DNA of 64,000 bases, taken from Sulfolobus islandicus Y.N.15.51. Its GTDB lineage: Archaea; Thermoproteota; Thermoprotei_A; Sulfolobales; Sulfolobaceae. The translations under genes and the position numbers were made by a program. Shown here piece after piece: positions 32,505 to 46,924 of the stretch (its first letter is position 1; each line of letters begins with the position of its first letter). Under the pieces are notes generated by a model. It worked only from the letters and a program-made list of their open reading frames with translations. It made no database searches and had not been told where the DNA came from. The stretch spans positions 2,134,501 through 2,198,500 of the forward strand of contig NC_012623.1 in NCBI RefSeq assembly GCF_000022485.1, given 5' to 3'.

Positions 32505-32635
32505 CAGTTGGGGTTTGGGCTTTATTGAATTTTCATGAATTTGTATCCAATTCTCAGCCCTTGGGCTTCAACAGAGTCACTTCCGTTACCCCTACGCCCC
32601 TTTAGCGGGATAACCCCAACCCACACCCGTGAATG
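32505..32635 (+). ncRNA. Structured RNA element, second copy
   Basis: GGGCT (32517-32521) pairs with AGCCC (32556-32560), and inside it GAATT (32527-32531) pairs with AATTC (32549-32553). The loop TTCATGAATTTGTATCC is nearly identical to that at 41928-41943, while both stems differ by compensating changes. A GTTGGGG/CCCCAAC outer pairing (32508-32514 with about 32624-32630) would enclose it. The segment is GC-rich in an AT-rich region and has no gene beside it, so it is a solo copy. Confidence 0.6.
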
Positions 32636-32638
32636 TGG

Positions 32639-32865
32639 GCTGAATCCTTTTTCACGTTGATAGAAATCTTTTTGTCAGTTTATAACGAATTTTTGCTGAT
32701 AAATGATGATCTCTCACACCGATGTGGGCTATGGTGGAGTGATTGCGGAGATGTGAGCCCCGTGCCGTTGGAGTCCCATGACCCACCTGTGGTTGAGGGC
32801 TAAGTCCCTACACTCGATCATGAATGAAGATAAAATGATTGAAATGCAAGTGTAGGGATGAACGG
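32639..32865 (+). mobile_element. 227-bp internally deleted IS607 derivative
   Basis: The left part (GCTGAATCCTTTTTCACGTT) matches the left end of the IS607 copies, and the right part (from about 32740: GAGATGTGAGCCCCGTGCCG, to GTAGGGATGAACGG) matches the tnpB 3' end and right end. Both genes are gone. GG dinucleotides lie at both borders (32637-32638 and 32864-32865), as in the full copies. It inserted directly after the structured RNA at 32505. Confidence 0.85.
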
Positions 32866-32915
32866 TTTAACAAGAGGTGAATACAACCGTTATCGTGTTA
32901 ATATGAAAAGTGTTG

Positions 32916-33645: not shown

Positions 33646-34717
33646 GTGAAAGGAAATTATAGTTATTCCAATCCTAATAGAGACCAAGTCCTTATTAAGG
33701 GTTGGGGGGACATCTGTTTATTTTGATTATGTATCAGCAGATCTCCCTCAAGCTAAGGTGGTCGTAAACTATAATGGTGTGGATTACCTAATACCTTACA
33801 TACCCTCAACCTCTTTTAAAGGCTTATTGAGGAGCACTGTTGAGGTGAGTAGGAGAAAATCTGGAAACCCTCCAGCAGATTTTGACAATAAAGTAAAAGA
33901 ATTCTTATCCGCGTTAAGCGACAAGAGTAAGAAGATTTTTAGGGAGAATTTAGAGAAGGAAGTAGAACTTTTAGCTAACTCTGGCATTATCCCTTATAAT
34001 TATAAGGACCTAGTGAAAAGAGGTGATGAAGGTTCTTTAAAGGAGGTACTTAGGGTTTACTTTGACGTTAGCGGTTGGAATTCATCTGAGTCGTGTTATT
34101 CCACATCAGACCTAGATAGGTGTGAGAACGTTTCGTTAATAGAGGATGAAGATAGGAGGAAGTTCAGAGAATTGTGGAACAGGCTGACTGGGAGGCAACC
34201 TATTTGTAGGACTTGTAGACTTTACGGTACCTCAGGTTTAAGGGCATCAGTTAGGTTTAGTAATTTTTACCCGATAGACCCTTTTCCTATACGCATCGAT
34301 AGACTTACTCACGTTTCAATAGATAGGCGTACGTGGGCTTCATCTCCTCAAAAGTTATATAATGAAGAAGTCATCAGTATGGGTGTTCGTTTTTTAGGAT
34401 TTGCACTGTTACTTAAAGATGAATATAAGGAAAATATTCTAGATGATCTAAAACTGTTGAGTGATAAGGCGGAGAGGGTTGAGGTCACTTTGGGTGCTAG
34501 GGGGAGTGTCGGTTACGGTATGTTTTCCTTAAAGTTTGGGGACTTTGAAGTAGAACTGAGCGATAAGAGTATTTTAGGTAATCTAACCCTGAAATTTAAG
34601 GTGAAAGAGGGAGTTGAATATAATGTTACTGAGAAGTTAAAGGTTTTAAATATCTTTTACCCGAGTTATTTGATTTCATCGATAGAGGTGGTAGGAAATC
34701 GTGAGGGAGCTAATTAA
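33646..34717 (+). CDS. Type III Cas7 (Csm3-like RAMP), start region frameshifted
   Basis: The body is a RAMP protein of about 356 aa: SVYFDYVSADL near residue 24 (acidic loop), IPSTSFKGLLRS near 54, TCRLYGTSGLRAS in the middle, and LGARGSVGYGMFSL near 285. It is a close relative of the protein at 221-1375. No normal start codon exists in the frame upstream of GTG 33758, which would cut off the first strand and the acidic loop. GTG 33646 would fit the paralogue if one A is removed from 33649-33651. So the true start is unclear: sequence error, rare start codon, or a truncated protein. Confidence 0.8.
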
Positions 34718-35102
34718 ATGTGAGGAAGTTAATCTAAACCTTAAGTTTAATAGTGAGGAAAGCCTTTTCCATTTTCTATTTCTATTCAAAACTTATCTTA
34801 GGTGTAAGTTCAGGGAAAAAAGTATTAGGGAAAAGTACTTTGGTTCTGCGAGAGAGCATTTTATGTCTAGAATCCTTTATACTCCTAAAATAAGGGACTT
34901 AGTTATAGAATCTATGGAGGTTTGTATTATAGACAGAGATGCAAGCAATTACGTGATAAATGGTTTGAAGGGAGAAGTCCTTAAACTTTATGAGGTGTTT
35001 AGTAAACATGAAATGGAGTATTATGCAAATGAGACCGTAGATTACGTCCCCGATCTTAGAAAATTCTTTAAAAACTGCCTGAGGAGGAAAAAAACGTGGT
35101 AA
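34701..35102 (+). CDS. Unknown subunit of the type III-like operon
   Basis: A 133-aa protein (GTG start, 17-nt overlap with cas7) with an alpha-helical, basic composition: FHFLFLFKTYLRCKFREKSI and KNCLRRKKTW at the end. It overlaps the next RAMP gene by 7 nt. No family is recognised. It lies where a small subunit or an adaptor could sit in the complex; the left-edge copy of the locus has a protease-like gene at this position instead. Confidence 0.6.
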   Translation: MRELIKCEEVNLNLKFNSEESLFHFLFLFKTYLRCKFREKSIREKYFGSAREHFMSRILYTPKIRDLVIESMEVCIIDRDASNYVINGLKGEVLKLYEVFSKHEMEYYANETVDYVPDLRKFFKNCLRRKKTW

Positions 35103-35695
35103 AAAAGTTAGAATTTAAATTAGTACCCGTAATGCCTTATACTCTGTTTAACGGTGATGTAAAGTATAGCATAGGTTATTTGAGTTCTGTTAAGGGGATG
35201 TTGAGAACTGCATCAATTTTTGGTTTTAGGACTTTATTCGGAGAGGGTTATTCTTGTGAGGAGTTGTTCGGTAAGACTTGTCCGGAATTGAGTGACGAAG
35301 AAAGAAAAAAGTTGAGATTTTTCCCCTGCCCTATATGCAGAACCTACGGAATGACTGGCCTTAGAGGGTGTAAATTTATTGTTACAAATATAAAGGAAGT
35401 TATGGGAGGTATCAAGGAAATGAAGTATAGATTCTTATACAGAGGCCCTTATGATCTTAAAGTTTCTAAAGAACCTTTAAGGGTCTCGGTTATTTGCGAC
35501 GAGACGTTTAAGTGTAATGTGTTTGTAATACTTCTGGGTCTTTATTATATAAACAAGGGAATAATAAGACTCGGTAAGTTTAAATCTAGAGGATTGGGAA
35601 CATTTAGAGTTGAAATTGAGGGTGATGAATGGAAGAAGTTGATAGAAGACGTCAATGTGTTAAAGGGTCACTTAGAAAAGTGTTTAAGTGAGTAA
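35096..35695 (+). CDS. Second RAMP (Cas7-like) protein
   Basis: A 199-aa protein with a RAMP pattern: N-terminal strand LEFKLVPVMPYTLFNGDVKY, SVKGMLRTASIFGF (the 'KG-x-hR' loop), a CPICRTYGMTGLRGC zinc segment near residue 80, and LGKFKSRGLGTFRVE, the glycine-rich loop as in Cmr1/Csm5-like proteins. The short size suggests one RAMP domain. GTG start. It would form a cap or end of the Cas7 filament. Confidence 0.75.
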   Translation: MVKKLEFKLVPVMPYTLFNGDVKYSIGYLSSVKGMLRTASIFGFRTLFGEGYSCEELFGKTCPELSDEERKKLRFFPCPICRTYGMTGLRGCKFIVTNIKEVMGGIKEMKYRFLYRGPYDLKVSKEPLRVSVICDETFKCNVFVILLGLYYINKGIIRLGKFKSRGLGTFRVEIEGDEWKKLIEDVNVLKGHLEKCLSE

Positions 35696-35697
35696 AA

Positions 35698-38220
35698 ATG
35701 CAATTCGATGAGCTAATGAAGAAGTTAGGCTATGAAAATGTAAACCTGGAGGTTATAAAGAATTTATCCCATTTGTTAAAGGATGATAGGTCTAATTTTA
35801 TCCTCTCCTTTATGAGTAATGACCGTGATAGCCTTGATAAATATGCTGAGAAGATAGATGACATGATAAATAAAATTGACTGTGATGTTAGTGAATCGGA
35901 ATTAGGGGGGCATGAGGGCTTACTAGTTTATTACATATGCGAGAAATTGAGGAGGAAATATAATGACTTAAAACAGAAGAAATACGAAGTAGTTAGGGAG
36001 ATATTAGATTCTCTACCACTACTTATTTATCTCCATGATTTATTTAAGGGGCTGAAACTTGGTTCGGGAAAAAATAGAAAAATAGAAAGTGGTCTAAAAC
36101 AGCTGCTTAAGGATATCTTTGAGGAATATGATAAAATTTCCAGTACTGCAGAGGAGTCTCCAGAACTGATCGGATATGATGAGAAAGTTAAGGAGAATTA
36201 TCCCGTGGCTATTGTCTCTCCAATCTTCGGTGAAATTAAGGAGATTTATCCCAGGGGAGATACTAAAGATTTTGACGACTACATTTCAAATAAATTAAAC
36301 GTTACAAGTAGCCCTAAAGAATTAATAGATAAAGAAAAATGGGACGTAATAGCCAAAAGTTTATTACTTAAACCTCAGCGGACGTGGTTCTCCGGAAATG
36401 ACATAGCGATAATTGCACATTTAAGAGGAGCTTTTTACGCTTATCTACTTTCTAATGGTGCAACCTTAATAAAACTAGAAAACCCCTTCTTTAACACTAC
36501 GTCGTTAAAGGATCTGTTAGGCTCTTCAAGTATCCTGAGGATATTCTCATATCATTTAAACATGAAAATTTTGGAAAAAATGAAGGTAAGCTTATTATTC
36601 TTACCCATAGTGGGCGAGAAGGAAATTAGTATACACGAGTTCAAGGAGATTTTCAACTCACCTTTCATAGAATTATTAACGCCTTTCACTGTTTATACAA
36701 CGATAGACAGTATGATGCTCCTAATACCTTATAGCATAAAGGGTGAGTTTGAGGAGATAGTAGAGGAGGCCTTTAATGAAACCCTATCCGAAATCTTTAA
36801 GGAGTATGTAATTGATAAAAAGGATGAGAATAAGGAGCATATAGAGATTCATTATGATATTATTAAATCCGGCCTTTTAGCGGGGTCTGATGAGCGTGAA
36901 AAGGCAAAGCTTTTTAACGAGTTCTTGCTAGCGGAATCCCCAATAACTAAATCGGCTTATGTAGTTCATTATTCAACATATTTACCCTTGTCAGATGATG
37001 TTTGTGACAAATGTAAGGTGAGGATGGCTATAGAGGAAGACGAGTTAGAGAAATTAGAGAAAATCGTGAAATTTAGAAATGAGGTCTTAGGTAGAAAAGA
37101 GAGATTATGCCACGTGTGTACTGCGGTAAGGTTATCAAGCGTGTTTTTTAGAGAGTATGCAGCTAGCTTAGACGAGGTAGGGAGAGATCTTATATTTATA
37201 GCAGTTAAAATTGAGCCTTATGTACCAGAAGGTAAAGTGGATTTTAACAAAATCGTGGATGAAAAATTAGAGATGAAGATCGACGAGCTGAAACAAAAAA
37301 TAGAACTCATTAGAAGAGAAATGAAGGACGAAGTAATATCACATCTTAAGAAGGAAAACGATGCGATAAATAAAATGCTATCAAAAAATAACGTAAAAAA
37401 GGAGGAGTTGATTAAAGCGATGGAAGAGGGATACAAAGGGGAACGTATATCCGAATTCCTTGATCAGTTTGACACAAAAAATAAGAGTGATTACTTAATA
37501 ACTTTTTGCGCTCTCGCTTTCGAAAAAATTAACGATATTGGAATTTTAAATAATATCTTTAAAGAACTTAAAATTGAAGAGAAAGATGAGCACCAATTAG
37601 CCAAACTAATCGACAACATCCAAAAAATCAAAGAGAAATCTTCAACTGGTAATTTGCCTTATAACCTAACTGTTCAAGATTCTATAGATAGGAGATTATC
37701 CCAATTAATAGAGTTTTTCCTTTTAATGGAAGAGTTGAAAGAGAAATTACCAGAGGCAGTTGTCCTAGTACCACCATCATCTTTCAATAGTTTTGTTATT
37801 TTCGTTATGAACATTGAGAATTTCCGCAAAAATACCGAGAATATAATAAACGTTCTAAATACCTTAAGTAAGAAACCTCACCTGCATTATTATAAACCGA
37901 TCATACGCGTGTTTATAATAAGGTCGTTATCGGACGTGCCGATGAAAAATATCATAGAACTGATAAGCTCTTTAGACGAGAAGGTAAGTAAGCAAAACGC
38001 AGTGGTTTACCTACCAGTATATTTAGGGAGGGGCGTGATGGAGGTCGGTGAACCGACAATTTTAGACAAGTTAGAATTTCCAAACCCAGAAGAACTTGAA
38101 GAGTTCCTAAATGCAGTAGTCAAATTAAGTGAGGAGAATAAGTTATTAAATGATAGATTCTTGGAAGATATAAGGAAATATCCTCAAGAAAAATTAAGCG
38201 TAGCCAGGTTATTAAAATGA
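35698..38220 (+). CDS. Cas10-like large subunit without a GGDD motif
   Basis: 840 aa. It has an HD-like pair (YLHDLFKGLK, His113-Asp114) in the N-terminal part, helical regions, and a four-cysteine zinc module (Cys436/Cys439 and Cys471/Cys474) as between the two palm domains of Cas10. Beyond it, the strand that should carry the metal Asp reads IAVKIEPYV, and no GGDD is found, so cyclic-oligoadenylate synthesis is probably lost. A coiled-coil-like stretch is at about 515-640. It sits among RAMP genes (2-nt gap upstream, 4-nt overlap downstream). Sulfolobales subtype III-G is described with an inactive cyclase; the match is inferred. Confidence 0.75.
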   Translation: MQFDELMKKLGYENVNLEVIKNLSHLLKDDRSNFILSFMSNDRDSLDKYAEKIDDMINKIDCDVSESELGGHEGLLVYYICEKLRRKYNDLKQKKYEVVREILDSLPLLIYLHDLFKGLKLGSGKNRKIESGLKQLLKDIFEEYDKISSTAEESPELIGYDEKVKENYPVAIVSPIFGEIKEIYPRGDTKDFDDYISNKLNVTSSPKELIDKEKWDVIAKSLLLKPQRTWFSGNDIAIIAHLRGAFYAYLLSNGATLIKLENPFFNTTSLKDLLGSSSILRIFSYHLNMKILEKMKVSLLFLPIVGEKEISIHEFKEIFNSPFIELLTPFTVYTTIDSMMLLIPYSIKGEFEEIVEEAFNETLSEIFKEYVIDKKDENKEHIEIHYDIIKSGLLAGSDEREKAKLFNEFLLAESPITKSAYVVHYSTYLPLSDDVCDKCKVRMAIEEDELEKLEKIVKFRNEVLGRKERLCHVCTAVRLSSVFFREYAASLDEVGRDLIFIAVKIEPYVPEGKVDFNKIVDEKLEMKIDELKQKIELIRREMKDEVISHLKKENDAINKMLSKNNVKKEELIKAMEEGYKGERISEFLDQFDTKNKSDYLITFCALAFEKINDIGILNNIFKELKIEEKDEHQLAKLIDNIQKIKEKSSTGNLPYNLTVQDSIDRRLSQLIEFFLLMEELKEKLPEAVVLVPPSSFNSFVIFVMNIENFRKNTENIINVLNTLSKKPHLHYYKPIIRVFIIRSLSDVPMKNIIELISSLDEKVSKQNAVVYLPVYLGRGVMEVGEPTILDKLEFPNPEELEEFLNAVVKLSEENKLLNDRFLEDIRKYPQEKLSVARLLK

Positions 38221-38900
38221 GGTACCTAAGGGTAAAGTTGAGAGTTTATTACGGCTATAAGAAGGAAATTTTGTCCTCTACTACTTTAGCTGGTGCGTTA
38301 ACGCAATTTTATGCAATAAGCGGTGAAAATAAAGACGTCAACTTTGGTTTTTCAGATTTTACGCTCATAAACAAATTTGTATTTTACCAAAATAGGGTAA
38401 ACTTAGGTAGAGTGTATTATTCCTCATTCCCCTATCTTCAAAAGTTATATTTATCTAGACATAAGGCTTACGCAGAATATGAGGGGTGTGTTGTTGGGGA
38501 TATTGAGGAAGGTAGGAATGAGCTCAAAAAATTACTCCTAATCAATTTTTCTGAAGTTGAAGAAGTTAAAGTGGAGGAATCTAAATCGGATCTTTACGCA
38601 TTAGCAATACCACTAATAAATGTAAATGATGCAAAGACTTTTGGGGATATTGTAAGGATTAGGTTCTTAAGGTTTCATGGTTTAAACGAAATGGAACAAC
38701 ATCCCATCTATGTACTAGAAGGTAAGAATATTAAAAGAACAAAGGAGAAAATAGTAAAGTTAGTAGATGTAAAGTTAACAAGTAAGCCTAAGGAATATAA
38801 TATATTGTTAGATTTACTTAGCACCATAGAAGGTTTAGATAAGGCTTATATGAAAATGGCTCACGGAGTAGTTGTACCTAAAGAGTGTGTTAAATTATAG
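38217..38900 (+). CDS. Cas5-like RAMP protein (last gene of the operon)
   Basis: A 227-aa protein that overlaps cas10 by 4 nt. The N-terminus (LRVKLRVYYGYKKEILSSTT, then LAGALTQFYAI) resembles the first strand and helix of Cas5/Csm4-type RAMPs, which bind the crRNA 5' tag. No glycine-rich loop is clear, and the C-terminus is alpha/beta. The assignment rests on the context and the N-terminal pattern. No cas6, cas1/cas2, CARF gene or CRISPR array is seen nearby. Confidence 0.6.
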   Translation: MRYLRVKLRVYYGYKKEILSSTTLAGALTQFYAISGENKDVNFGFSDFTLINKFVFYQNRVNLGRVYYSSFPYLQKLYLSRHKAYAEYEGCVVGDIEEGRNELKKLLLINFSEVEEVKVEESKSDLYALAIPLINVNDAKTFGDIVRIRFLRFHGLNEMEQHPIYVLEGKNIKRTKEKIVKLVDVKLTSKPKEYNILLDLLSTIEGLDKAYMKMAHGVVVPKECVKL

Positions 38901-39195: not shown

Positions 39196-40356
39196 ATGGC
39201 TAGGAGGGGTAATAAAGCGATCAGAGCTACAGTTTCGATGAAGATCGCAGTCTCAGACTCCCTCCTAGTCCTCGTTAATAACTACGTTAAGGCACTCCGT
39301 TTCACCCTATTTTGGTTGAAAGAAAACGTTCCAAATCCAAATGAGGATGGGGTGATTTCGAAAGTTCACGAGGAGTTGTACACGAGGTTAAGAGAGGAAT
39401 ATAATTTACCCTCAAAGGTTGCTGAGGATTGTTATAGGGATGCCCTCTCAGTGTACAAGGGTTGGTATAATAATCCTAAGAAGGGTAGGTTTCCAAGAGT
39501 ATATAAGCCAACAGTTTGGCTAACACCAAAGGCAAGTTATAATGTGGACTTTGAAGCAATGACTGTTAGGATTGCAAGTGTTGGTGAACTCCCAATCTTA
39601 GGCTATCCCAGAAACTTGAAGGACTACATGAGTTGGAAGATGAAGGAGGCTAGGTTAGTGATCAGGAATGATAAGGCTTTCCTTAAAGTGGTTTTTGAGA
39701 AGAAGAAAGAGAAGGTTGAGCCAAAGGAAAGTATTGCCATAGATATTAATATGAGTGAGATAGTTGTAGGGAAGGACGACGAGCACTACGTTAGGATTCC
39801 AACTCGTTTGCATGAGGTTCACCACTGGAAGTCTTTAGCTGAGAACCTACAGAAGAAGTATCCAAGGAGGTGGAGGGAGAATAAGAGGATTTTGTATAGA
39901 GTTCGTTCTTTCAATCTAAAGGCTAGGAGGATTATGGAGGACTTTGCTAGGAAGGTTGGGAAGTGGGTTATTGAAATCGCTGAAGATTTTGGTGCCAATG
40001 TTATTAAGTTAGAGAACCTAAGGAACCTCATTAAGAATGTTGATAAACTACCTAAAGAGTTTAGGGATAAGTTGTATCTGATGCAGTACCGTCGTTTACA
40101 GTATTGGATTTCTTGGCAAGCTAGGAAACACGGAATGATTGTTAAGTTCGTTAACCCCAGATATTCTTCAGTCTCATGTCCAAAATGCGGTAGAAAGATG
40201 AGGGAGGTTTCCCATCGTTGGTTTAGGTGTTCATGTGGTTATGAGAATGATCGTGATGTTATTGCAATAGTTAATTTAAACAGGAGGGGGTCTCTGACCC
40301 CCTCATCTGCCCACCAAATGAGGGATGTAGCCCCGAACCGATGGTGGGAACGATGA
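39196..40356 (+). CDS. tnpB: TnpB RNA-guided nuclease
   Basis: 386 aa. RuvC residues are Asp183 (IAIDINMSE), Glu273 (IKLENLRN) and Asp354 ([11 protein letters not shown]). A complete zinc ribbon is present (CPKCGRKM and CSCGYE). The N-terminal basic region matches the wedge/REC part of TnpB. It is full length, so it is likely active as an omega-RNA-guided DNA nuclease that helps element maintenance. The 3' end overlaps the predicted omega RNA. Confidence 0.9.
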
Positions 40357-41797: not shown

Positions 41798-41900
41798 AAT
41801 TAAAGTTTAGAGTCAATTCTAATAAAGGTTAATTAATAATTGGATCCTAGTGTCGCCATTTTAAATGAATTTGCCTTTACAAAAGATTGAAAGCCTCGAG

Positions 41901-42090
41901 AATGGGGGTCGGACTTTCATTGAGGTTTCATGAATTTGTATTCAACCTCTCGTCCTCATTCCCCTTATTTCCCTCCCCATGCCGTCTACGGGAGCGGTAC
42001 TTAAACCACTCCCTTCAAGGACATGGGGAGTTTCATTGGGCACCTTCCTCCCCCTCACATTGCTCATCGAGTTCATAGTGGCACCCTCCG
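41901..42090 (+). ncRNA. Structured RNA upstream of the TnpB-related gene
   Basis: GGAC (41911-41914) pairs with GTCC (41952-41955), and GAGGTT (41922-41927) pairs with AACCTC (41944-41949) around the loop TCATGAATTTGTATTC. The copy at 32505 keeps the loop but has compensating stem changes. A further long stem, CTCCCCATG with CATGGGGAG (about 41980 and 42035), encloses a GGGAG-CGGT/ACCA-CTCCC hairpin. The block is GC-rich in an AT-rich region. It could be a guide RNA for the gene at 42276; this is inferred from place and conservation. Confidence 0.6.
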
Positions 42091-42139
42091 ATTAATTTTT
42101 GTAAGTAAAGCTTATAAGCTTTACTTTAAATAATCAATC

Positions 42140-42304
42140 ATGGTTCAAGTTACATTCCATTCAAAAATATTCTCAATGGGCCATGACAAATACGGAGATC
42201 CAAAATACGCAATATACGTTCCTAAAAGCATTCATGAGAAGATTAAGGGCTTGTTGGAAAAGGAGGTGATAGTAATTGTCATCCTACCAGATGATGAGGA
42301 ATAG
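42140..42304 (+). CDS. 54-aa protein upstream of the TnpB-related gene
   Basis: ATG 42140 to TAG 42304. The sequence MVQVTFHSKIFSMGHDKYGD with YAIYVPKSIHEKIKGLL and EVIVIVILPDDEE resembles a small beta-barrel (AbrB/SpoVT-like) or regulator-type fold. It overlaps the TnpB-related gene by about 29 nt in another frame, so translation is coupled. It has its own ATG with a short leader, so it is probably real. It was not recognised as a known family. Confidence 0.6.
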   Translation: MVQVTFHSKIFSMGHDKYGDPKYAIYVPKSIHEKIKGLLEKEVIVIVILPDDEE

Positions 42305-43376
42305 GATTATCTGTTCTAGGGAAGCCCTCGAAAACTTCCAATTCGTTACAATAAACGGTAAGGTAATTTTTGAAGATAAGGATAAGATAGTTAGAATTGC
42401 TAGGGCTTACTCACAAGTAGTTAAGAGTGCTATTAGGCCATTGTTTGATGGGAAGAGTATTGATGAGTTAACCAAGGAGTTTTACAACATCTTACCAAAC
42501 TACATTTACCTAGAAACTGCTTTAAAGCAAGCTAAGACAATTGTTGATGGTTTGTTGGATAGAGAGAAGGATAAGATTTTGCACGCTAAGATTAAGAGGT
42601 TCTGGTTTGGTAGTAGGGGTAACAAAAGTGATAAAGGTAATAGGAATGTGAAGTTCCACGTTTTTCAAGACCACGTTGAAGTTAAAGTTAAAGACCCATG
42701 GGGTAAGTGGGTTCACGGGAAGGCATATTTTGGCAAGGAGTACTTACCATTACTCCATGAGTTGGAGGAATTAGCAGAAAGGAAGGAGGAGGGTTACGGT
42801 GCTGTAGTAAGTTTCAAGCATTACCCTATGATCCACCTCCAAATCCCACTCTGGTTGTACTTAAAGCACTTCTCTTCGCCGAAACCCAATGGTTACGGTT
42901 TGGTTGCTGGTTTCGATTTAAATAGTGATAGGTTGAACGTTGTTGTAGTTAATAAGGATGGTAAAGTTGTTACTAAAAAGACGTGGTGGTATTCAGATGT
43001 TACTAGACCAGGTTTTCCTAAAGGGAAAGCTATGGCTTTGCGTTTGAATGCTCTTTCACAAGCTCTTAATTTCCTATCAAGGGTTGGCGTTGATTACGTT
43101 GCTTTTGAGGACTTGTTCCTAGTTAAGAAGAGGAGGTTCACTAGGAGTAGGAGTGGTAATAGGAAGGTTTCACGTTTCGCTAAGAAGCAATTGCTAACTC
43201 ACGGTGTTGTTAAAGCACTTAGGTTGGGTTTTAACGTTGTGTTAGTTAATCCTAAGGGTACTACAAACTCTGAGGATCACGATAGGATAATGAGGGAGAA
43301 GGGTTTTGATAGGCATACAGCCTCAGCTTACTTAATAGCCTTAAAAGGATTAGGAATGTTAAATGATATCAAATGA
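42276..43376 (+). CDS. TnpB-related protein lacking the zinc ribbon
   Basis: 366 aa (TTG 42276; an ATG at 42291 may be used). RuvC-like residues are Asp214 (VAGFDLNSDRLNVVVV), Glu278 (YVAFEDLFLVKKRR) and Asp345 (GFDRHTASAYLIALKG). The last segment is unlike the usual D-x-N-A-A of TnpB, and the CxxC zinc ribbon is absent. Many Sulfolobales carry such 'TnpB-related' genes. All three acidic residues are kept, so nuclease activity is possible. Context: a 54-aa gene and a structured RNA lie directly upstream, and no omega-RNA-like 3' end is seen. Confidence 0.75.
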   Translation: MSSYQMMRNRIICSREALENFQFVTINGKVIFEDKDKIVRIARAYSQVVKSAIRPLFDGKSIDELTKEFYNILPNYIYLETALKQAKTIVDGLLDREKDKILHAKIKRFWFGSRGNKSDKGNRNVKFHVFQDHVEVKVKDPWGKWVHGKAYFGKEYLPLLHELEELAERKEEGYGAVVSFKHYPMIHLQIPLWLYLKHFSSPKPNGYGLVAGFDLNSDRLNVVVVNKDGKVVTKKTWWYSDVTRPGFPKGKAMALRLNALSQALNFLSRVGVDYVAFEDLFLVKKRRFTRSRSGNRKVSRFAKKQLLTHGVVKALRLGFNVVLVNPKGTTNSEDHDRIMREKGFDRHTASAYLIALKGLGMLNDIK

Positions 43377-43485
43377 CATAAAATTCACGGTTTATCGGAA
43401 ACTGTTGACAACGGCAAAATACCTTCAGATCCCCGTACGAGAATTAAGTTAGGCAAAGTATCTTTTAACTCATGTTGTTTAATTC

Positions 43486-44315: not shown

Positions 44316-44872
<557 letters not shown>

Positions 44873-46281: not shown

Positions 46282-46554
46282 ATGGTAACTACAATAAAAG
46301 TTAAGGACAAAACCAAGCTCGATCTTGAGAATTTAAGGGCTGAGATCTTGCTGAAGTCGAATACTAAGCTAACTTTGGAGGAACTGCAAGATTATCTCAT
46401 ATCCTTTGCCATTGATAATAAGGAGTCGTTTTTTGATTATATGATGAAGAAGTTTAAAAGGAAAAATTACGAGAAAATGAAGGAAGCTATAAAAGATTGG
46501 GGTATTGATACTAGTAATATTGACGTCGACAGTGTAATATATGATAATCCTTGA
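46282..46554 (+). CDS. vapB: VapB-like antitoxin
   Basis: A 90-aa protein with a short N-terminal strand (MVTTIKVKDKTKLDLENLRA, ribbon-helix-helix-like) and a charged C-terminus that would wrap the toxin. It overlaps the PIN toxin gene by 14 nt. A decayed relative is at 18674-18810. It likely represses its own promoter through the palindrome upstream. Confidence 0.7.
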   Translation: MVTTIKVKDKTKLDLENLRAEILLKSNTKLTLEELQDYLISFAIDNKESFFDYMMKKFKRKNYEKMKEAIKDWGIDTSNIDVDSVIYDNP

Positions 46555-46924
46555 CACGAGCTTCCTAATAGCTTTTTATAATAAGAGGGATTCCAGACAC
46601 GAAAAAGCCCTGAAGATCTTCGACGAGATAACTAACGACAAGCTAGTAATTTCAGACTATATCTTTGACGAGATAGTGACATTTTTAAGGGCTAAGGTTC
46701 CGTGGATAGCCATAGAGGTGGGTGAGAATATTTTAGAGAACTTGGACATTATAAGAGTTAATGATGAGGACTTTAGAACAGCGTGGGAACTGTTCAACAA
46801 GTTTAATAAATTAAGTTTTACCGATTGTACTACCTTATCCCTCTCGAAGAGGCTAAAAATTAAGAGGCTAATGACTTTTGATCAAGCATTGTCGAATGCG
46901 TTTGCAGAAATTAACAAAAAATGA
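46541..46924 (+). CDS. vapC: VapC-type PIN toxin
   Basis: A 127-aa PIN ribonuclease: MIILDTSFLIAFYNKRD (first Asp), VISDYIFDEIVTFL (Glu), LSFTDCTTLSLSKRL (Asp) and RLMTFDQALS (last acidic residue). All four acidic positions are present, and the length is normal. Coupled with the antitoxin at 46282. VapC proteins usually cut tRNA or rRNA. Confidence 0.85.
   Translation: MIILDTSFLIAFYNKRDSRHEKALKIFDEITNDKLVISDYIFDEIVTFLRAKVPWIAIEVGENILENLDIIRVNDEDFRTAWELFNKFNKLSFTDCTTLSLSKRLKIKRLMTFDQALSNAFAEINKK

Follow-up and report, generated by a model that had tools for sequence, protein, structure and literature searches.

The window (the whole 64,000-nucleotide stretch of DNA that was analysed) carries a mobile element of about 1.5 kb, in which two overlapping genes on the plus strand lie beside a predicted structured RNA that reads from the minus strand. 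The features of this locus are listed below in window coordinates.

41905..43415, no strand assigned: mobile element, left end GGGGTCGGAC..., right end ...GTTGACAACGGC; delimited by comparison of copies, shared tips and the empty sites of two other copies
41885..41904, minus strand: flank-derived 3' tail, the predicted guide (RNA 5' to 3' CAUUCUCGAGGCUUUCAAUC); unrelated between copies
41905..42095, minus strand: divergent guide-like RNA scaffold; from Rfam Sso133, covariation and the models R1/R2, with the strand given by G-U pairs
41905..41965, minus strand: 3' stem-loop with a kink-turn, GGGG-AAU-GA-GGAC ... GUCC-GA-CCCC, closing at the element end
41974..42030, minus strand: central long hairpin (CTCCCCATG...CATGGGGAG), inside the Rfam match at 41973-42046
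42105..42122, no strand assigned: palindromic TATA-like region CTTATAAG between the RNA and the genes, a putative promoter
42140..42304, plus strand: 54-aa AbrB/MazE-fold protein; from the open reading frame, its homologues and an orthologue (L078) that matches PF04014
42276..43376, plus strand: 366-aa relative of TnpB without a zinc ribbon; from the open reading frame and RuvC residues D214, E278 and D345

The 20-nt length of the predicted guide is an assumption; the 3' end of the scaffold is the end of the element, and its 5' end near 42090 is an estimate from the TATA-like site. The element is flanked on either side by a canonical zinc-ribbon TnpB (386 aa, window 39196-40356) and a TnpB C-terminal fragment (172 aa, 44354-44872). 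Elsewhere in the window, type III CRISPR effector-like frames were recognized by eye at 33758-38900 (RAMP-like, 319 aa; Cas10-like, 840 aa; and a 227-aa partner), as was a 90-aa frame overlapping a 127-aa PIN-like frame, with the look of a VapB/VapC pair, at 46282-46924.

Judged by its sequence, the 366-aa protein is a member of a TnpB-derived family that has the RuvC Asp/Glu/Asp triad of canonical TnpBs and is without their zinc ribbon. A preliminary description of this locus had reported both traits together with a deviant last motif, and this is borne out by 27 aligned homologues, which share 22-89% identity with the window copy. D214 and E278 are invariant in 27/27 sequences and D345 is kept in 26/27, with Asn in its place in one member (L079); N216, R219, H347, S350 and A351 are also among the invariant residues. 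At the position of the CxxC...CxxC of canonical TnpBs the family has TTxSxEHDxIMKxxGLDRHTASAY, so that the zinc ribbon (TNB) is absent from the window protein, a shorter TTxSxEHDxIMKxxG stretch stands instead, and the region is shortened throughout the family alignment. Only one curated TnpB-type model, NCBIfam TIGR01765 for the N-terminal domain, matches above its cut-off (2.5e-21); NF040570 (17.6 bits vs 100) and TIGR01766 (17.6 vs 32) stay below theirs, and the window protein has no Pfam match above cut-off. Across the family, TnpB models match 19-23 members (best about 1e-9), and Cas12f and TnpB come out on top in a profile search against solved structures (E about 0.007); an HHalign comparison with three canonical TnpBs was weak. 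A fold model built from just five close sequences, with a mean pLDDT of 53.7, matches RuvC and Cas12f at 2e-6 to 7e-6; it is of good quality in the RuvC part and in some stretches of the N-terminal domain only, and the RuvC part alone is usable. The family is under purifying selection, with dN/dS among copies mostly 0.08-0.25 and 0.38 in the highest pair. Five near full-length copies, 79-100% identical to that of the window, are found in this genome (2.85 Mb, two contigs), and two scans for viral relatives found none. The reading frame starts with TTG; in-frame ATGs at 42291 and 42294 would give a shorter protein.

The 54-aa frame (42140-42304) overlaps the start of the 366-aa frame (42276-43376) on the same plus strand, as first described. 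We assign its product to the AbrB/MazE fold because the L078 orthologue matches PF04014 (36 bits, E 6e-9); the window's own 54-aa protein has no match to this family. The small gene belongs to group A only and is missing from group B, half of the family. The proposed three-part unit of protein, small gene and upstream RNA therefore needs amending: its parts do recur together, but the third is optional. At one locus in Metallosphaera yellowstonensis (L062, upstream of 2995), the AbrB-like gene is apparently interrupted by a short element with IS607-type tips, and the 366-aa frame is intact. A TATA-like site is found between RNA and gene in 16/17 group-A loci and is probably a bidirectional promoter; with this placement one would expect a leaderless mRNA and an RNA start near 42090.

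A GC-rich structured RNA upstream of the gene had also been proposed; the structure has stood, and the RNA proves to be divergent from the gene, not co-directional with it. At 41973-42046 the minus strand matches Rfam RF02814 (Sso133) with 91.2 bits against a gathering cut-off of 44, the single Rfam match across the 64-kb window and one of eight Sso133 loci above the cut-off genome-wide. Among the homologous loci folded upstream of the gene, a GC-rich RNA was readable on the opposite strand in 31/31, its 3' end being chosen by eye. Both sides of a pair change at 17/34 pairs in the group B alignment and at 27/58 in that of group A, values reached by 0/500 shuffles in either case. G-U cells exceed A-C cells in the two alignments (61 vs 13 and 97 vs 45), and the RNA strand is therefore the minus strand, opposite to the gene. 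On this evidence of covariation and pairing the structured RNA is real; it reads away from the gene and would continue into the flanking DNA. A 5' leader of the gene was considered and ruled out, as the RNA is separated from the genes by the TATA-like site and its G-U pairs are compatible with the opposite strand alone.

A kink-turn of the form NNN-GA opposite GA interrupts the stem of the 3' stem-loop, its outer helix reaching to the element end, and the window copy has the full succession of helix, 3-nt bulge, tandem G-A/A-G and helix. The strict form occurs in 14/31 upstream regions on the RNA strand and in 1/31 on the other, with a mean of 1.3 in shuffles. This suggests that host L7Ae may also bind the RNA; S. 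solfataricus sRNAs have been obtained via RNomics and L7Ae co-immunoprecipitation (PMC3432209). Past the RNA 3' end, which is also the element end, sequences are unrelated from locus to locus, as would be expected of flank-derived guides. No exact match to the window's predicted guide was found in viral contigs.

The 366-aa family was found in 47/398 genomes of the phylum. Covariance models of the RNA were built from group B (R1) and group A (R2) and searched in 117 genomes of the order; R2, which represents the full scaffold, covers 41905-42113 on the minus strand, the window copy having been among its building sequences. Co-occurrence with homologues, set beforehand as the test of the unit, was borne out: among the matches listed, the RNA lies directly upstream on the opposite strand at about 40/45 protein loci, an approximate figure from coordinates compared by eye. 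It was also at the same place in 5/5 held-out loci from elsewhere in the phylum (R1 for L121, L124, L125 and L126; R2 for L129), which came from the 398-genome search and were not used in building either model. RNA and protein co-occur in divergent orientation across several archaeal classes. The same RNA core is kept under other transposon tips at two loci (L005 and L015), the first of which also has the same protein family, and it follows that the RNA goes with the protein and not with the ends. That the RNA is simply the canonical IS607 RNA was ruled out, since R2 detects canonical copies at most weakly.

Beyond the reading in the preliminary description, the unit is a transposon that has ends of the IS607 type and relatives that carry the RNA alone. 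The ends are sharply defined by comparison of copies in the genome, with GGGGTCGGACTTTC at 41905 and, on the other side, ...CAACGGC at about 43415. Over about 30-46 bp both tips are common to elements of ~1.9 kb in the same genome, which have genes for a serine recombinase and for a canonical TnpB 427-433 aa long. Related genomes supplied the empty sites of two other copies, GTAGTTTTA-GGC-GATGTG and GA-GGC-AAAA; in the occupied counterparts the element begins after TTTTA or GA, and insertion was therefore at GG with no further duplication. Insertion at GG is the rule for IS607 (PMC6188088), and the window element agrees with that family in this dinucleotide target, in the lack of a target duplication at the two sites and in having no terminal inverted repeats. 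The open reading frame list shows no serine recombinase TnpA frame inside 41905-43415; the serine recombinases of the host genome are located in other elements. The Sso133-bearing side is the counterpart of the IS607 right end, the home of the guide RNA in canonical elements, and the 366-aa gene is therefore inverted relative to the RNA. A further remnant with an IS607-type tip lies at window 32510-32870, where R2 scores 18.7 bits at 32510-32707 on the minus strand, and adjoins another GC-rich hairpin region ending GTGTAGGGATGAACGGTTT (plus strand).

Short versions of the element, 300 bp where measured, keep both ends and the RNA and have no genes, and RNA copies outnumber protein genes in many genomes. 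In one complete genome (G027, L096-L106), nine RNA-only elements of ~310 bp, 97.5% identical on average, accompany two full elements, so that two intact family proteins stand beside 11 RNA copies; all eleven copies of the element are recent. Its 11 left tips all belong to these 11 elements and are shared by no other element. No serine recombinase match and no canonical TnpB above the cut-off were found in this genome, which makes the family's own protein the likeliest partner for the RNA in it. Within about 2 kb of a further 18 solo RNA loci (L143-L160) in ten other genomes (G030, G062, G024, G046, G074, G015, G090, G011, G077 and G067), neither the family protein nor an A5-type canonical TnpB is present, the A5 profile being made of three sequences only; some solo loci belong to genomes in which no family protein was found anywhere. 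A misreading of canonical reRNAs as RNA-only loci was ruled out by the 18 loci with neither protein nearby.

The explanation that we consider probable is that an RNA-guided nuclease keeps the element, as well as the RNA-only copies in trans, in the genome. A TnpB-derived RuvC nuclease without a zinc ribbon would be carried by an element that has IS607-type ends and lacks its own recombinase. From a bidirectional promoter, the nuclease gene, with the putative AbrB-like regulator in group A, would be transcribed to one side and the folded RNA to the other, the latter ending by its kink-turn at the transposon end and then running on into flanking DNA. The scaffold would bind the nuclease, and the flank-derived tail would serve as guide. 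A serine recombinase acting in trans would excise the element at the GG core, after which the complex would cut the empty site, and the element would be regained through recombination with a sister copy; the same nuclease would serve the short RNA-only elements in trans. TnpB-like targeting of the insertion site under RNA guidance is the best reading because the scaffold ends at the transposon end, a flank tail follows, the triad is intact and the association is constant. It agrees with the triad in 26/27 homologues and the low dN/dS, with TnpB and Cas12f as the nearest named relatives by models and folds, and with GG insertion as for IS607. Against it stand the RNA-only loci in genomes that gave no match to the family protein, the Asn of L079 together with the missing zinc ribbon, and the mobile copies of G027 in a genome without a serine recombinase match.

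Alternatively, the RNA could guide the host's canonical zinc-ribbon TnpBs in trans, with the 366-aa protein as cargo that has another role. The tips shared with IS607 elements that encode canonical TnpB would fit this, as would the RNA-only loci in genomes without a detected family protein, but the RNA repeatedly adjoins the family protein, the genome search with R2 misses the IS607 copies, one of four canonical loci scores just 21 bits with this model, and G027 combines 11 RNA copies with the lack of any canonical TnpB above the cut-off; we regard this alternative as unlikely. Somewhat less likely again is a guided repressor of the TldR kind, in which the protein would use the RNA to bind DNA without cutting. 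Loss of the zinc ribbon, the Asn of one member and the regulator gene attached in group A point that way; however, the near-invariant triad under purifying selection does not, and flank-derived guides that differ from copy to copy leave no fixed host target apparent. It is improbable that the RNA is only an antisense-type or promoter-linked transposon regulator with no protein partner. Sulfolobus sRNAs near transposons have been interpreted so (PMC3432209, PMC3674436), but this RNA is not antisense to either frame, its covariation comes with strand-specific G-U pairs, and it accompanies this one protein family under different tips and in different archaeal classes. Most improbable is that nuclease and kink-turn RNA, perhaps with host L7Ae, are the mobility machine itself, moving full and RNA-only elements without a recombinase, with the RNA defining donor or target, a thought raised by the near-identical RNA-only elements, two protein copies, unshared left tip and lack of recombinase or canonical TnpB above cut-off in G027, for which a recombinase recently lost or of another family is the simpler reading.

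If the RNA-guided nuclease reading is true, the family would be a lineage of putative RNA-guided nucleases that is widespread among thermophilic archaea and for which we found no earlier description, with gene and guide RNA uncoupled into divergent transcripts and the zinc ribbon dispensed with. A divergent TnpB guide RNA was likewise not found in the literature searched, in which TnpB classification work is incompletely covered. The nuclease may then act in trans for the free-standing RNA loci, which would be a step away from TnpB bound to its transposon and towards separate guide loci. The orphan Sulfolobus sRNA Sso133 would gain a probable function, and a role of L7Ae in DNA targeting would become testable.

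With regard to known systems, IscB omega-RNAs lie upstream of their gene and are co-directional with it. The element shares the position on the gene's 5' side, and the preliminary description had likened the two on this account; that likeness does not hold, as the RNA here is on the opposite strand, reads outward and meets the transposon end with its 3' end, like a flipped TnpB guide RNA. TldRs, nuclease-dead TnpB-like repressors, are likewise TnpB-derived and RNA-associated, but they have lost their RuvC residues, whereas the triad is conserved in the 366-aa family. The central part of the RNA is a member of RF02814, whose annotation goes no further than Sulfolobus sRNA and which includes neither the 3' kink-turn stem nor the transposon end nor the link to a protein. 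The closest comparison is with IS607-family TnpB and its RAGATH-18-derived reRNA, with which the element shares IS607-type ends, GG insertion, the RuvC triad, an RNA ending at the transposon end and a flank-derived tail (PMC11061315). A possible kink-turn has also been proposed in the RAGATH-18 RNAs (PMC11061315). There, however, the gene comes first and the RNA after it (PMC11061315), whereas here the RNA is divergent and upstream, and the element has no zinc ribbon, no recombinase gene and, in group A, an AbrB-like partner. The IS200/IS605 TnpB of Sulfolobus islandicus is also an archaeal TnpB relative with, in concept, a flank guide, and its reRNA overlaps the tnpB 3' end in sense (PMC11043419). 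The RNA-257 family of S. solfataricus, by position, resembles IS607 TnpB guide RNAs; these sRNAs are sense to the distal part of the ISC1904 transposase gene and have been interpreted as antisense regulators (PMC3674436). Canonical TnpBs have a same-strand guide RNA at the gene's 3' end, and the 366-aa protein thus falls outside canonical TnpB on both its zinc ribbon and the position of its RNA; that it works like TnpB is the best hypothesis.
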